From positions 1-64,000 of the forward strand of contig JACTMI010000046.1 of NCBI GenBank assembly GCA_014584695.1: a stretch of 64,000 nt of DNA, read 5' to 3'. Made by a program: the position numbers and the translations under genes. The notes beneath the pieces were generated by a model. The model was not told the origin of the DNA. It did no database searches and was given only the letters and a program-made list of their open reading frames with translations. Origin of the DNA: Acidobacteriota bacterium. GTDB taxonomy: Bacteria > Acidobacteriota > Thermoanaerobaculia > Multivoradales > JAGPDF01. Of this stretch, positions 1,093-8,681 are shown in pieces (within the stretch, counting starts at the first letter, position 1; each line of letters begins with the position of its first letter).

Positions 1093-1827
1093 TCAGGCGG
1101 GTGTCGAGGGGGGCGGGGGGGTGACGCGGACGGGCCAGCGGGTCCAACGGGCGTGGGTGAGAGCCGCGCCGAGGTCGCGGTCGGTGGGGTAGGGCCGGCG
1201 CTCGATCCGGCGTGCGGCGAGGTCGAAGCGGGTGGTGCCGGCGAGGGGGAAGGGCGCGAGCTCGAGCGTGGTTGCGTCCGGCGCGGAGGTGACCCGGCCT
1301 TCCAGGCGCGTGTCTTCGAGGAAGGACGCGTCGCCGGTCGCGGCGGCGAGCGAGAGGGCGTCGGCGAGGGTGAGCCAGCGCAGGTCCTGGTCGAGCTCGG
1401 ACGGGGTGAGCCCGGACGAGGCGACGAGCTCGTCGCGGCGTGCGGCGAGCTCCTCGGCGAACGCCGGCGTCACCAGCCCGGAGCCGGAGCGGCGCGCGAG
1501 GCGGAGCGCGTGCGCGGCGGCGAGGGCGGCGGTGTGGGGCGCGCGCGCGGCGTGGCGCTCGACGCCGGCGCGCCAGATCTCCTCGCGTCGCGGCGGCGCG
1601 ACGGCGCGGAAATCGAGCGGCGCGCCGCTCGCCGGATCGACGCGCGGCGCGGCGTCGGCCTCCCACCAGCCGTCGTCGTGGCGCGCCACGGCGTCGAGCA
1701 GCAGGGCGCGGCGAGGATGGTCGACGAGCTCGGAGTTCACGCACAGGCGCAGCATCTCGGCGGCGAGCCGCGCGTGGTCGGCCTGCGTGACCAGACGAAA
1801 TCCCGTCTCCTCGACGGTGACGATCAC
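1093..1827 (-). CDS. DUF3891 family protein
   Basis: A 244-residue protein matching the DUF3891 family. The near-N-terminal FRLVTQADHARLA stretch and the later RHDDGWWEAD motif (His-Asp-Asp-Gly-Trp) are the family's recognisable conserved parts. The His/Asp motif recalls HD-type metal sites, but no activity is established, so function is unknown. I chose the GTG at 1825-1827 because it begins just before the conserved region. Longer in-frame starts, up to 1980, would overlap the divergent malic enzyme start and add a low-complexity, Arg/Gly-rich leader. The ribosome binding site is weak, so the start is uncertain. The gene is divergent from maeB. Confidence 0.7.
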   Translation of the reverse strand: MIVTVEETGFRLVTQADHARLAAEMLRLCVNSELVDHPRRALLLDAVARHDDGWWEADAAPRVDPASGAPLDFRAVAPPRREEIWRAGVERHAARAPHTAALAAAHALRLARRSGSGLVTPAFAEELAARRDELVASSGLTPSELDQDLRWLTLADALSLAAATGDASFLEDTRLEGRVTSAPDATTLELAPFPLAGTTRFDLAARRIERRPYPTDRDLGAALTHARWTRWPVRVTPPPPSTPA

Positions 1828-1952
1828 GAGGCGACTCTCGCTCGCCGGCACGCGCTTCGAGACATGACGATCTTTCAGACTACCCGATCGCGTGGCGCCG
1901 CGCCCCGCCCCACGACGCGGTCGCGAACCACCCCCGTGTTCCGCTCCCGGGC

Positions 1953-1960
1953 GATACACT
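1953..1960 (+). promoter_or_regulatory. Candidate -10 element for maeB (possibly leaderless)
   Basis: GATACACT lies only 6 bases before the malic enzyme ATG (1967). If used as a -10, transcription would start at or next to the start codon. This fits the absence of a Shine-Dalgarno sequence before this ATG. No clear -35 was found. Confidence 0.35.
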
Positions 1961-1966
1961 TTTCCC

Positions 1967-4237
<2,271 letters not shown>

Positions 4238-4335
4238 GCCGGCCGCGGTGCCTCCCGGAAGGAGGGTGGGTCTGGCGCTTGCAAGAGCGCCGTGTCACTC
4301 TTCGGCGCCCCGTGACGTTTTCTGCGGGTAGGCCT

Positions 4336-4341
4336 TAGAAT
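4336..4341 (+). promoter_or_regulatory. Candidate -10 (TAGAAT) for the CsgG-like gene
   Basis: TAGAAT lies about 25 bases before the ATG at 4367, with a strong AAGGAGG Shine-Dalgarno between them. The same TAGAAT word precedes other genes here (24325-24330 and 20552-20557 on the minus strand). Confidence 0.35.
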
Positions 4342-4366
4342 GCGCCCGACTCCAAGGAGGAAGACC

Positions 4367-4990
4367 ATGAAGCGTTTCATCGCCGTCGCAAGCCTGGTCG
4401 CGCTCGCCCTCTCCGCCTTCGCGGCGATCGGCGAGGCCCAGAACACGAAACCCCGCATCGCCGTGCTCGAGTTCAAGAACAAGGCGGACAACCAGTGGTG
4501 GTGGCACGGTGGCGCCGCGGCGGCCCAAGACGTGTTCGTCACCGAGCTGGTCAAGAGCGGCAAGTTCCGCGTCATCGACCGCGAGCAGCTGGCGGCGCTG
4601 ATGCAGGAGAAGAACCTCTCGATCGGCGGCGACATCGATCCGGCGAGCGCGGTCAAGGCCGGCAAGCTGATCGGCTGCCAGTACTTCCTGACCGGCGCGG
4701 TGACCGAGTACGGCGCCACGACGACGCAGGCCCACGGCCGCGGCGTCGGCGGCGTGCCCGGCTTCTCGGGCGGCAAGAAGACTTTCGTCGCGGCGATGAA
4801 CGCGCGCATCATCGACACCACCACCGGCGAGATCGTCTGGGCCGACGAGGCGCGCGGCGAGGACGCCAAGTTCAACCTCTCGATCGGCGGCTTCGGCGGC
4901 GGTGTGTCGAACGACGAGCGGATGTTCGACAAGGTGATGAAGCCGGTCATCCAGCAGCTGACCGCTAGCATCAAGGCGGCCGACCTCTGA
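4367..4990 (+). CDS. CsgG/HfaB-like secreted protein
   Basis: A 207-residue exported protein with a signal peptide (MKRF start, hydrophobic core, likely cleavage after an Ala-rich GEA segment). The mature part has CsgG-family features: an RIAVLEFKNK strand, GKFRVIDREQLAALMQEK, a middle ASAVKAGKLIGCQYFLTGAVTEY segment split by a variable loop, and a late ARIIDTTTGEIVW strand. CsgG proteins are outer membrane curli secretion pores and are lipoproteins in E. coli; this one lacks a lipobox Cys and has no curli genes beside it. It may be a periplasmic or outer membrane relative of unknown role. The ATG at 4367 has AAGGAGG at the right distance, so the earlier start at 4340 was not used. Confidence 0.8.
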   Translation: MKRFIAVASLVALALSAFAAIGEAQNTKPRIAVLEFKNKADNQWWWHGGAAAAQDVFVTELVKSGKFRVIDREQLAALMQEKNLSIGGDIDPASAVKAGKLIGCQYFLTGAVTEYGATTTQAHGRGVGGVPGFSGGKKTFVAAMNARIIDTTTGEIVWADEARGEDAKFNLSIGGFGGGVSNDERMFDKVMKPVIQQLTASIKAADL

Positions 4991-4999
4991 CCGTTTCTC

Positions 5000-5078
5000 G
5001 GACCGGGCGGCCGAGCGGCCGACCCGGTCCGGTACGTGGTACCCCCCGGGCCCCCGCGCCAGCGTGTGCGGGGGCCCG
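5000..5078 (+). terminator. Two consecutive hairpins after the CsgG-like gene
   Basis: The first hairpin (5000-5030) pairs GGACCGGG with CCCGGTCC around an inner CGGCCG/CGGCCG stem. The second (5047-5078) has an 11-bp perfect stem, CGGGCCCCCGC with GCGGGGGCCCG, and a 10-base loop. There are no poly-T tails. Their place just after a stop, between convergent genes, supports transcription termination. Confidence 0.5.
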
Positions 5079-5089
5079 CATCGTCTCGG

Positions 5090-5127
5090 CCCGGCAACCT
5101 CGGCAGCAGCCGACCGAGGTTTCCGGG
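5090..5127 (-). terminator. Hairpin after the pseudokinase-TonB gene
   Basis: A 14-bp stem with one mismatch (5090-5103 with 5114-5127) lies one base beyond the stop codon of the minus-strand gene. Together with the two hairpins just left of it, it makes a bidirectional termination zone between convergent genes. Confidence 0.5.
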
Positions 5128-5128
5128 C

Positions 5129-7042
5129 TCAGTCCTTGCCGAGGGTGAAGGCGACCTGCAGGCTGGTCCACATGCGGACCTTGACTCCGCCCTTGGTCGC
5201 CGGCGTATAGGTGCAGGAGCGGGCGTAGTCGAGCGCCGCCTCGTCCAATCCGAAGCCGGCCTTGGCGCCGGTGCCCTGAGCGTCGATGACGCGCCCGTTC
5301 TCGTCGACCAAGACGCGCACCACCACCGTCGCCTCCTTCTTCATTCGGTGGGCGAGCGGCGGGTAGCGCAGCTGCGGCTGCCGACTGAGCTTCGGGGCCA
5401 CGACCCCCGGTCCGGGCTCGACCAGATCGCCCGGGCGGACGCCCGAAGTGGCGGCCGAGGTGGCCGGAGTGGGCGCCGGAGTCGGCGCCGCGGTCGGCAC
5501 CGCCGCCGCGACCTGGGTCGGCTCCGGGGTCGGGGTGGCGGTGGTCACCGGCAGGGGCGCCGGCGTCGCAACCGGCCGGGCCGCCACGGCTTCGGTTTCG
5601 AGCGGGTCGGCCGCCGGCAGGGGCCGCGGCGGCGGCGCGGTCGCCGCGGCACGGGCCTCCTGGGCCTTGCGTGCATCCTCGAGCTGCTTCTGGAGATCCT
5701 TCATCTGCTGCTCGTACGCGGCCGAAGAGGACTTGAGCTTCTCCTGGACCACCCGCTCGATCTGGGCCTGGATCTCCTCGGGCGTCGGGCCGGCCGGCTG
5801 GGCGGGAGCCTCTTCGGTTTCGACCGGGACCGGCACGCTCGCCGCCGGCGCCGGCGCGGGCGCGGCGCCACCCCGACCGAAGACCAGATAGCCGACCAGG
5901 GCCAGCACGGCGACGCCCCCCCCGGCCGCGGCGAGGATCAGGTTCCGATTGCCGCCCTTCGCCGTCTCGCCGATGCCGTACTTGTCGCGCAGGACCGAGG
6001 TGTCCTCGCGCACCGGTCCGGGTGCGTCGCGGATCGGGCTCGGCGCGGCGGCGGCGGCGCGGGGCGCGGCGGCGGCCGCCGCCACCTGCTGCACCGGAAT
6101 CTGGGTGGTCTTCTCGCTTTCGAGCTCCTGGGTCTCGCGCTCGATCTCCTCGCGAAAGAGGTTGTGCATGAAGAACGCGAGGTTGAAGGTGGTCGGGTTG
6201 TACTGGCCGTCGAACATCAACTTGGCGAGCGTCTTGTGCCAGAGGACGGCGTCGGCGATCCGCTGCTCGCGCGGGACCAGGGAGCGCTTCAACAGATTGG
6301 CGAGATCGGGGTGGAGGTTGCCGCCGTCGGAGGCGATCACGGCCTGGTCGACGGCGCCGCCGAGCCCGCCCGGCACGAATCCGGGGACCTTCTGCGCGGT
6401 CAGCAGCTCGAACAGGATGGCGCCCAGGCTGTAGACGTCGTCGGCCTTCGTCGGCGCCTGACCGGCGGCGAGCTCGGGCGCGAGATAGCGGCCGACGGCC
6501 TCCTTGATCAGCGGGTGGCCCGCCGACTCGCGCAGGCCGGTCGAGGCCTCGAAGCCGAGCAGCCGCAGCTCACCCTCGTTCGAGACCAGCACCAGCTGAG
6601 GCACCACGAAGCCGTGCAGGAGCCGCTCGTCTCCGAGCCGCATCTCGTAAGCGACGGCGAGCCCGAGCGCGATCCGCTCCGCCATCAACAGCGCGTGGTC
6701 GAGCGGGATCGGCGAGTGCTTGCGGCCCGCCTGCTCGACCAGCTGGCTGAGCGAGCGCCCGGAGACGTAGTCGTAGGCGACGTAGGGGACCCCGCGCACC
6801 TGGCCGAGGTCGACGCCCTGACCGAGGTTCGGGCTCTTGAGCGCCTGCTGGATCGCGGCGCGCGCCTGCATGCGCTGCCCGAGCCGGTCGCCGTCGAGCC
6901 CCTGGCCGTTGAAGACGCGCAGCAGCACCACCCGCTCCAGACCCTGCTTGCCGATGCGCCCGGCCCGGAACGACTCGCCCAGGGCGTCCTCGGAGAGCTT
7001 CTTGAGCAGCAGGTAGTTGCCGAACTGATCGCGCGTGTTCAT
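5129..7042 (-). CDS. Pseudokinase - transmembrane - TonB C-terminal fusion
   Basis: A 637-residue protein. Residues about 8-275 have a protein kinase fold: YVAYDYVSGRSL in the hinge area, YLAPEL in place of APE, and DDVYSLGAILFELL as helix F. Catalytic positions are lost: the VAIK lysine is Arg42, HRD Asp is Phe145, the loop Asn is Leu150, and DFG reads GFE (163-165). A Pro/Ala linker is followed by one membrane helix (about 367-389), a coiled coil (about 420-475), a Pro/Thr-rich stretch and a TonB C-terminal domain (about 545-637, with LRYPPLAHRMKKEATVVVRV). The architecture suggests a cytoplasmic ligand-binding pseudokinase tied to a periplasmic TonB-like arm. The ATG has a GGGGGAG ribosome binding site. 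Confidence 0.85.
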   Translation of the reverse strand: MNTRDQFGNYLLLKKLSEDALGESFRAGRIGKQGLERVVLLRVFNGQGLDGDRLGQRMQARAAIQQALKSPNLGQGVDLGQVRGVPYVAYDYVSGRSLSQLVEQAGRKHSPIPLDHALLMAERIALGLAVAYEMRLGDERLLHGFVVPQLVLVSNEGELRLLGFEASTGLRESAGHPLIKEAVGRYLAPELAAGQAPTKADDVYSLGAILFELLTAQKVPGFVPGGLGGAVDQAVIASDGGNLHPDLANLLKRSLVPREQRIADAVLWHKTLAKLMFDGQYNPTTFNLAFFMHNLFREEIERETQELESEKTTQIPVQQVAAAAAAPRAAAAAPSPIRDAPGPVREDTSVLRDKYGIGETAKGGNRNLILAAAGGGVAVLALVGYLVFGRGGAAPAPAPAASVPVPVETEEAPAQPAGPTPEEIQAQIERVVQEKLKSSSAAYEQQMKDLQKQLEDARKAQEARAAATAPPPRPLPAADPLETEAVAARPVATPAPLPVTTATPTPEPTQVAAAVPTAAPTPAPTPATSAATSGVRPGDLVEPGPGVVAPKLSRQPQLRYPPLAHRMKKEATVVVRVLVDENGRVIDAQGTGAKAGFGLDEAALDYARSCTYTPATKGGVKVRMWTSLQVAFTLGKD

Positions 7043-7143: not shown

Positions 7144-8259
7144 TCAATCGGGATTCGCGCCGGCGGCGGCGCCTCCACCCCGCCGCTGGCGGAAATACTG
7201 CCGCTGCCAGCGATCGACGTTGCGTTCGTGCTCGGCGAGCGTGGTCGAAAAAACGTGGCTGCCGTCGTTGCGGCTGACGAAGTAGAGGTACGGCACCGCG
7301 GCGGGCGCCGCGGCGGCGGCGAGGCTGGCCGCGCCGGGGGAGCAGATCGGTCCCGGCGGCAGCCCGCGCACCCGGTAGGTGTTCCAGGGCGATTCGGCGC
7401 GCAGGTCGCGGCGGCGCAGGTCGCCGTCCCAGCGCCCCTCGAGCTTCAGGCCGTAGATCAGGGTCGGATCCGCGTAGAGACCGATGCCGCGCGCCAGCCG
7501 GTTGGCGTAGACCCCCGCGATCAGCGGGCGCTCCTCCTCGAGCCGGGCCTCCTTCTCGACCAGGCTGGCGAGGATCACCAGCTCGCGCAGCGGCCGGGAG
7601 TCGGCGCTGCCGAGCAGAGGCCGGATCTCGCGGTCCAGCCGGTTGCGGAAGTTGGCGACCAGGGCGTCGGCGATCGCCGCTTCCCCGGTCGCGGCCGGAA
7701 AGCGGTAGGTGTCCGGGAAGAGGTAGCCCTCCAGATTGGCGGCCGCCGGGTCGAGGTCGGCGATCCGGCCCGGATGCTCGAACTCGGCGAGCAGGCGCTC
7801 GAGATCCCCGAAGCCGGCCCGCGAGAGCGTCTCGGCGGTCTCCCGGTAGGTCAGACCCTCGATCACGGTCACCGGATAGGTGGCGACCCGCCCCTCGCGC
7901 AGGAGGGCGAGCAGCTCGAGCGCGGAGAGCGGGGGCTGGAACCGGTACTCACCGGCGGCGAGCGGCGGGTCGCCGAGCACGCGGGAGTGGTAGACGCGGG
8001 CGAGGAGGGCCGACGAGAGCAACCCTTCCCGCTCGAGCCGCGCCAGGATGCCGCGCGTGCTCTCGCCCGGAGCCACGACGAAACGGCGGCCCTCCGGCGG
8101 CGCCTCGAAGGCCCGGGGCGCCGCCAGCTCCCGCCGCGCCCACCACCAGGCGCCGCTGGCGGCGAGGCCGAGAGTCGCCAGGGCGACCAGGGCGGCCACG
8201 CTCCAGGCGAGCCAGCGAGCCGTGGAGCCGCGCCCTGGGCGCCGGCGAGCCGAGGTCAA
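7144..8259 (-). CDS. mltG: Endolytic murein transglycosylase MltG
   Basis: A 371-residue single-pass membrane protein: an Arg-rich cytoplasmic tip, a transmembrane helix at about residues 16-40, then the YceG/MltG domain. Family hallmarks are VTVIEGLTYRETAETL, the LEGYLFPDTYRF strand and ASLVEKEA, whose second Glu (Glu237) aligns with the catalytic Glu of E. coli MltG. Later come YADPTLIYGL and SPWNTYRVRGLPPGPICSPG. The enzyme cleaves nascent glycan strands in the periplasm and is thought to set strand length. It overlaps ruvX by 4 bases (ATGA) and is followed by the pseudokinase gene on the same strand; ruvX-mltG order is common in bacteria. Confidence 0.95.
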   Translation of the reverse strand: MTSARRRPGRGSTARWLAWSVAALVALATLGLAASGAWWWARRELAAPRAFEAPPEGRRFVVAPGESTRGILARLEREGLLSSALLARVYHSRVLGDPPLAAGEYRFQPPLSALELLALLREGRVATYPVTVIEGLTYRETAETLSRAGFGDLERLLAEFEHPGRIADLDPAAANLEGYLFPDTYRFPAATGEAAIADALVANFRNRLDREIRPLLGSADSRPLRELVILASLVEKEARLEEERPLIAGVYANRLARGIGLYADPTLIYGLKLEGRWDGDLRRRDLRAESPWNTYRVRGLPPGPICSPGAASLAAAAAPAAVPYLYFVSRNDGSHVFSTTLAEHERNVDRWQRQYFRQRRGGGAAAGANPD

Positions 8260-8681
8260 GCGCCGGGTCCCCGGCGACGGTCGAGCGCCTCCTGGAGCAG
8301 GATCTGCGCGGCCACGGCGTCGAGCTTGTCACGCTCGGCCCGGCGTCCCGCCCCGCCTTGGCGCAGCCGCTCGGCGGCGGCGTGGCTGGTGAGCGTCTCG
8401 TCGATCCACTCGACCGGCAGGCCGAGGCGTCGGGCGAGCCGCGCGCCGAAGCGGTGCACGCGCTCGGCGGCGGCACCGGCCCGCCCGTCGGCGGGTCGCC
8501 GCGGCTCGCCGATCACCACCAGCGCGATCCCCTCCGGCTCGACCAGCGCGGCGATGGCGGCGATCGCCGCGCTGTCGCTGGTCCGCTCGATCACCCGCCA
8601 AGGCAGCGCGAAGCTGCCGCTCGGATCGGAGATCGCGAGGCCGATCCGTCGCTCGCCGAAGTCGATGCCCAAGGCCCGCAT
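8256..8681 (-). CDS. ruvX: Putative pre-16S rRNA nuclease / Holliday junction resolvase YqgF
   Basis: A 141-residue protein of the YqgF/RuvX family, the usual length. It starts with the RNase H-like GIDFGERRIGLAISD motif carrying the first catalytic Asp (residue 7), then a VVIGEPRR strand, DETLTSHAAAERL with the conserved Asp-Glu, and KLDAVAAQILLQ with the last Asp. In E. coli YqgF matures the 5' end of 16S rRNA; a resolvase role has also been proposed. It is the first gene of the minus-strand group and overlaps mltG by 4 bases. Confidence 0.93.
   Translation of the reverse strand: MRALGIDFGERRIGLAISDPSGSFALPWRVIERTSDSAAIAAIAALVEPEGIALVVIGEPRRPADGRAGAAAERVHRFGARLARRLGLPVEWIDETLTSHAAAERLRQGGAGRRAERDKLDAVAAQILLQEALDRRRGPGA

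Follow-up and report, generated by a model that had tools for sequence, protein, structure and literature searches.

The window analysed here, a stretch of 64,000 nucleotides of acidobacterial DNA, contains a gene that raises the question of what a cell may do with a kinase-like domain that has lost its catalytic residues and is joined, across the membrane, to a TonB domain. An earlier note on this DNA, made from the sequence alone, had proposed such a fusion at positions 5129–7042 and had regarded it as a potential sensor or regulator of TonB transport. The position was confirmed, and the gene, which we named PKTON, lies on the minus strand. The gene, the parts of its product and the adjacent genes are as follows:

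5129–7042, minus strand: pseudokinase-TonB gene PKTON, 637 aa; ATG at 7042, stop at 5129–5131
6203–7042, minus strand: PKTON pseudokinase domain, residues 1–280 (AlphaFold2 model, VIA-align fold match, lost catalytic residues)
6134–6202, minus strand: PKTON family signature YNPTTFNLAFFMHNLFREEIERE, residues 281–303, helices right behind the kinase C-lobe
5882–5941, minus strand: single predicted transmembrane helix of PKTON, residues 368–387 (hydropathy; helix 369–389 in the model)
5642–5782, minus strand: helical stretch of PKTON, residues 421–467, inside the Ala/Pro-rich linker, presumably periplasmic
5141–5377, minus strand: TonB C-terminal domain of PKTON, residues 556–634 (Pfam PF03544, E 6.9e-14, complete profile 1–79 covered)
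7144–8259, minus strand: mltG/yceG, endolytic transglycosylase (Pfam YceG, E 2.7e-76), directly upstream of PKTON
8256–8681, minus strand: ruvX (Pfam RuvX, E 4.2e-36), overlapping mltG by 4 bp
4340–4990, plus strand: CsgG/LpoB-like, probably exported protein (Pfam CsgG, E 4.6e-27; LpoB, E 1.3e-10)

On the minus strand the order is ruvX, mltG, a gap of 101 bp and PKTON, and PKTON may be co-transcribed with these neighbours; a scan of the locus for promoters and terminators found none, which speaks neither way. Rfam gave no match at the gathering score in the whole window. The CsgG/LpoB-like gene, in whose product no lipobox Cys was seen, is convergent with PKTON, and a similar gene is present in 14 of 73 loci.

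The degraded kinase domain

The N-terminal part of PKTON adopts the bilobal fold of Hanks-type (eukaryote-like) kinases. AlphaFold2 modelling of residues 1–312 with a 64-sequence alignment reached a pLDDT of 94.8 and a pTM of 0.93, and comparison of the model with solved chains by VIA-align gave Z values of at least 8 for 1000 out of 1000 chains, with 25.7 as the best. Among the matches listed, human MAP2K6 (25.7) and MST3 ranked at the top, while PknA and PknB matched with Z values of 24.6 and 24.3, respectively. Foldseek TM-scores, normalized by query length, ranged from 0.57 to 0.66 in the 50 matches listed. EssB/YukC pseudokinases, components of the T7SSb, do not appear among the 50 VIA-align matches listed, a listing too short to weigh on kinship. 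Pfam detected a Pkinase domain (PF00069) at residues 61–217 with an E value of 3e-9, above the family cut-off. PKTON has the lowest score among the 38 kinase-domain matches of its own genome, and a chance match is ruled out by fold Z values of about 25.

All four catalytic positions of an active Ser/Thr kinase are changed, exactly as the earlier note had read them. Arg42 occupies the position of the β3 Lys, HGF (143–145) that of HRD, Leu150 that of the loop Asn and GFE (163–165) that of DFG; in addition, the helix C Glu is replaced by Arg61. The same note had listed the APE and DxxS regions as kept, and both are indeed present (188–190 and D202/S205, respectively), as is the C-lobe Arg261.

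The note had also named retention of the catalytic residues by relatives as an observation that would speak against a pseudokinase. In an alignment of PKTON with 29 relatives from the same order, the HRD Asp, the loop Asn and the DFG Asp are absent from 30 out of 30 rows, and the β3 position carries Arg (R42) in 28 rows and Lys in two; E18, D19, H143 and G144 are kept in all 30. For a wider count, 68 rows were kept from 73 loci, 67 of them with a readable catalytic loop. Outside this count are L118, which was set aside for poor alignment, L116 and L117, which are absent from the alignment, and two loci that are myxobacterial by title (L113, L114), which retain HHD/HRD as well as DFG and were used as outgroups. 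None of the 67 readable relatives has the HRD Asp, and the third residue of this motif is F, A, L, C, M, G or Y and in no case W. Single catalytic residues persist here and there: the DFG Asp in four relatives (L107, L109–L111), the β3 Lys in three (L056, L086, L107) and the loop Asn in another three (L066, L082, L106). Twenty further loci from the phylum, whose motifs were read by eye and of which L156 is partly masked, gave a similar picture, with the HRD Asp in 0 of 19 readable sequences and an Asp at the DFG place in L137–L139. Three pairs (L149/L077, L148/L101 and L147/L116) are, to judge from identical lengths, apparently the same contigs found twice, and the counts of the two sets were kept separate. 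That catalysis was lost in a single genome only is ruled out, as the HRD Asp is missing across the relatives.

The TonB domain and an active paralogue

The C-terminal domain of PKTON is a TonB domain, as originally claimed. In the full-length model (pTM 0.55 for the whole), the C-terminal blocks comprising residues 541–630 reached pLDDT values of 94–98; the linker is mostly disordered except for helices 421–435 and 442–467, with block means of 66–88. The combination of pseudokinase, one transmembrane helix and TonB_C in one protein is conserved in relatives: hydropathy indicates a single membrane helix in 59 of 59 full proteins, and of 54 divergent relatives, 53 have the TonB domain by a profile of the own family (the miss is L143, and a few contigs are counted twice). 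The kinase side is presumably cytoplasmic. Elsewhere in the family, we noted in a Vicinamibacteria MAG a separate, strong TonB_C domain (L094:2992–3213, minus strand; E 5e-28), which is encoded shortly after a gene for elongation factor G, roughly 5 kb away from that locus's pseudokinase gene.

The remainder of the protein is not TonB-like. In the membrane helix of E. coli TonB, Ser16 and His20 are conserved and matter for the interplay with ExbB/ExbD. A His is present in the membrane helix of all eight genuine TonBs that we took from exbB-exbD-tonB loci of the own genome and seven relatives, but the helix window is devoid of His in 57 of 59 PKTON-type proteins, and in the other two (L075, L095) a His is found at the edge only. 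PKTON shares the C-terminal PF03544 domain with the TonB energy transducer and differs from it by its N-terminal kinase fold, by the missing TonB-type helix and by the lack of an ExbB match on its contig. As to the latter, the earlier note had pointed to nearby ExbB/ExbD and TonB-dependent receptors as something to look for, and for ExbB and receptor plugs the search was negative on the window contig (C14): the two MotA/ExbB matches of the own genome are located on C7 and C1, and none of its 18 receptor-plug matches falls on C14. Assignment of PKTON to a transport operon was rejected on these grounds, its neighbours being ruvX and mltG instead.

A link between a kinase and TonB does exist in this genome, but with another protein. 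The closest paralogue of PKTON (L121; G000:C7:2041–4950) has 969 aa and combines an intact kinase domain with TonB_C (E 3.6e-16). It is 35% identical to PKTON across PKTON residues 6–634 and shares its layout (kinase, then a hydrophobic segment, a linker and TonB_C). Unlike PKTON, it possesses a long extra N-terminal part, so that the Pkinase domain starts at residue 355, it keeps the motifs VAIK, HRDVSPQN and DFG, and it has exbB-exbD-tonB genes as neighbours: its gene, on a contig different from that of PKTON, is divergent to ruvC-exbB-exbD-exbD-tonB and adjoins accD. Among 13 relatives whose loci were fetched, accD is near the active paralogue in all 13, and ruvC together with exbB in eight (L127, L128, L130, L131, L133–L136). 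L124 and L125 have ruvC and a DUF4388 gene and no exbB match within 16 kb, L132 has neither ruvC nor exbB nearby, and the loci L126 and L129 end at a contig edge. The paralogue is possibly a true kinase regulator of TonB energization. The proposed regulation of TonB transport therefore finds some footing in the active paralogue and not in PKTON itself, which lacks the helix His and resides beside ruvX-mltG.

To compare the occurrence of both proteins, we scored the dead one by its signature profile and the live one by a match at E 1e-70 to the kinase domain, because the active paralogue is poorly conserved in the stretch behind its kinase domain. Among 59 relatives, 29 carry both proteins, 11 have the dead version without the live one, four the live version without the dead one, and 15 have neither; some of the genomes with a single protein may owe this to draft assemblies and to the thresholds, and 14 of the 15 double absences belong to one genus and may perhaps reflect one event. 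That genus (code g6, same order; G010, G018 and 12 more genomes), which yielded no match to a dead or live kinase-TonB protein, has few kinase candidates at first look (4–14).

Family spread, selection and gene neighbourhood

In a tree of 86 rows, a single branch (SH-aLRT 99) separates all 64 pseudokinase rows from the 22 active ones. As judged from this sequence tree, the pattern fits a single, old loss of catalysis. The pseudokinase side holds members titled Thermoanaerobaculia, Holophagae and Vicinamibacteria, and with three titled classes on one side of one branch the family looks old; the deep branching within it is unsure, owing to a quick method and to long branches (L097, L076, L108 and others). 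The 73 loci are titled as Acidobacteria(ota), or as a class or member thereof, with the exception of the outgroups L113/L114, of L067 (uncultured bacterium) and of L054. The latter is titled Deltaproteobacteria, yet its pseudokinase falls inside the acidobacterial clade, and it is probably a mislabelled MAG. These loci were collected with the peptide patterns TTFNLAF[FY] and FGxY[LV]LLKKL, which favour the PKTON family and would miss relatives devoid of the patterns. A signature profile covering a 51-residue stretch matches 40 of 59 order-level relatives and, in a sample of 297 genomes from the phylum, 86, with a single match in 82 of the 86. Carriers include the named strains Acanthopleuribacter pedis KCTC 12899 and Sulfidibacter corallicola M133.

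The dead domain is under strong constraint. Its dN/dS values are 0.011–0.238 and fall below those of linker and TonB domain in five out of five close pairs. In 24 rows, any two sequences are on average 61.6% identical in the kinase part, 52.7% in TonB_C and 32.0% in the linker. A decaying pseudogene is ruled out by this purifying selection and by the open frame in relatives. The most conserved element is TTFNLAFFMHxLFR just behind the C-lobe; only R26, P148, G157, F286, L288 and A289 are invariant in 64 rows.

The recurrent neighbours of PKTON are ruvX and mltG. In 40 of 73 loci, mltG is located directly upstream on the same strand, that is with less than 700 bp between match ends, and ruvX precedes mltG in 38 of these 40, while the remaining two loci are truncated by the end of the contig. 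In three more loci mltG lies at another place (3.35 kb away in L056, in convergent orientation in L065, and separated by a second pseudokinase-TonB copy in L076), and 30 of the 73 gave no mltG match within the available flanks, some of which are cut by contig ends. Twelve of the 40 loci (L074, L075, L077, L078, L080, L081, L083, L084, L090, L091, L099 and L112; 30–39% identity, several on short contigs) have no matches to the thiolase, lptD and malic-enzyme neighbours, and the trio ruvX-mltG-PKTON thus seems to be a stable unit. L076 carries tandem pseudokinase-TonB genes after mltG (1534–3600 and 3648–5600), the second of which is very divergent.

Other groups have other neighbours. In the seven loci of the Acanthopleuribacter/Sulfidibacter group, a HIT gene follows the pseudokinase-TonB gene in 7/7, an SLT lytic transglycosylase is encoded two genes downstream in 6/7, and ddl and murF-alanine racemase (alr) are upstream in 3/7. 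In Acanthopleuribacter pedis (L102:2563–12999), a frame that fuses murF to alanine racemase, one that contains two ddl-like stretches, the pseudokinase-TonB gene, HIT and SLT are consecutive. In another group the pseudokinase-TonB gene precedes the ATP synthase gene atpF (5/5 loci), and further groups have an FHA-cyclase plus TPR, RNase R, MoaE or glycosyltransferases. Thus, the linkage to cell-wall genes is recurrent and not universal, given these variable neighbours and the loci that lack mltG. Pfam assigned no family to several flanking frames from Vicinamibacteria and from L137, L138 and L144, which are probably wrong-strand frames. The FHA domain binds phosphothreonine. In family code f21, an FHA-GAF-cyclase gene precedes the pseudokinase-TonB gene in both L140 (6663–8917) and L145 (2745–4999), and in L140 Pfam found a TPR protein that precedes it as well; the pairing may be compared with MviN and FhaA (see below).

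A possible role at the cell wall

Our preferred reading, to which we assign a probability of about 0.45, is that PKTON spans the envelope as a pseudokinase scaffold connected with the remodelling of peptidoglycan. Architecture, catalytic loss, wide conservation in the phylum, purifying selection and gene order are direct observations. Mechanistically, the kinase fold, unable to phosphorylate, would act as a docking or conformational-switch domain, with the TTFNLAFFMHxLFR helix as its likely partner-binding face. The membrane helix and the long, Ala/Pro-rich and partly helical linker would allow TonB_C to reach across to the outer side of the periplasm and perhaps to contact an outer-membrane protein or the wall there. 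On the inner side, the most likely partner in the lineage of the window would be the machinery of MltG, whose gene is directly upstream, and PKTON might thereby set where or when new glycan strands get cut. Both the partner and the direction of the signal are suggested by inference. ruvX and mltG adjoin each other in many bacteria, and the position of PKTON may therefore be one of convenience.

The wall link draws on gene position and, by analogy, on two precedents. In Enterococcus faecalis, IreK is reported to co-purify with MltG and to phosphorylate it (PMC12369325). PASTA kinases (PknB, StkP, IreK) are the best sequence matches of PKTON and among its top fold matches; unlike PKTON, they are catalytically active. 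They bear extracellular PASTA repeats. The second precedent is the pseudokinase of MviN (MurJ) from Mycobacterium tuberculosis, which controls peptidoglycan synthesis by recruiting FhaA, as described in a 2025 pseudokinase review (PMC12599244). According to the same review, MviN (ActPs3 family) is, like PKTON, a membrane protein with an intracellular dead Hanks-type domain; it has a carbohydrate-binding domain where the outer part of PKTON is TonB_C, and its family has an activation-loop deletion, as opposed to a one-residue gap in the PKTON activation segment relative to the active paralogue. With this small gap and its occurrence in Acidobacteriota, PKTON also falls outside the mainly actinobacterial pseudokinase family as delineated there. 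The GLW, CP1, DLHK, DYD and ActPs1-3 families of this review resemble PKTON in that they, too, are Hanks-type domains of bacteria whose motifs are degraded, and several have a C-terminal transmembrane segment (PMC12599244), but their motifs differ from its HGF and VLLR; in particular, GLW pseudokinases carry GLW instead of HRD and, in β3, LLLL/W. The terms TonB, Acidobacteria and MltG each have 0 occurrences in the main text of the review. Searches of open-licence literature, covering titles and starts of abstracts, found no description of a pseudokinase-TonB or kinase-TonB fusion; one of the papers listed contains both terms 'kinase domain' and 'TonB domain' (PMC3597751). Within the literature so searched, no membrane pseudokinase of bacteria that bears a TonB arm is described.

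Four other explanations deserve consideration. PKTON could be an allosteric partner that modulates the active kinase-TonB paralogue in a back-to-back dimer, as in PknB-type kinases, which would suit the intact HRD/DFG motifs and TonB_C of the paralogue, the ruvC and exbB genes near it in 8/13 relatives and the joint presence (29/59) or absence (15) of both proteins. However, the dead protein lacks a live match in 11/59 genomes and the reverse holds for four, nearly all double absences come from the single genus mentioned above and may go back to one event, PKTON and the paralogue are encoded on separate contigs, and exbB is unmatched in L124 and L125 despite the presence of ruvC and the DUF4388 gene; we consider such a partnership unlikely. 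It appears quite unlikely that PKTON senses or regulates TonB-dependent transport, with the arm touching the TonB boxes of receptors and the pseudokinase relaying or gating ExbB/ExbD energy. A profile-complete, conserved TonB_C domain and 18 receptor-plug matches in the genome are what this idea would predict, but the window contig has no match to ExbB or a receptor plug, the helix is devoid of the His of genuine TonBs, and the gene linkage is to ruvX-mltG.

The long low-complexity linker with its terminal domain would also be compatible with a passive, TolA-like tether from inner to outer membrane for which the kinase fold is a mere anchor; an inert anchor should not be the best-conserved part of the protein, however, which the kinase part is (61.6% identity), and we regard the tether as improbable. 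Least probable by far is a new chemistry of the fold. Some bacterial pseudokinases do perform AMP transfer or glutamylation (SelO, SidJ), according to the review (PMC12599244), and the retention of E18, D19, H143 and G144 in 30/30 order-level rows and of R42 in 28 speaks for the idea, yet no alternative metal or nucleotide site is evident family-wide, with six invariant residues in 64 rows.

Taken together, PKTON looks like a genuine, so far undescribed envelope protein that is widespread and strongly conserved in Acidobacteriota. Beyond the scaffold reading, it is conceivable, though rather doubtful, that the family represents a phylum-wide non-phosphorylating device, in which the signature helix would read the state of the cell and the TonB arm would connect cytoplasmic signalling with glycan cutting of the MltG type and with the outer membrane, operating beside the active twin tied to ExbB/ExbD. 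This twin offers a natural comparison of a live and a dead version of one architecture, and the two named strains among the carriers should allow work in culture. A role is known for few bacterial pseudokinases. Acidobacteriota are a common but little-studied phylum, and PKTON probably does something central to their envelope.
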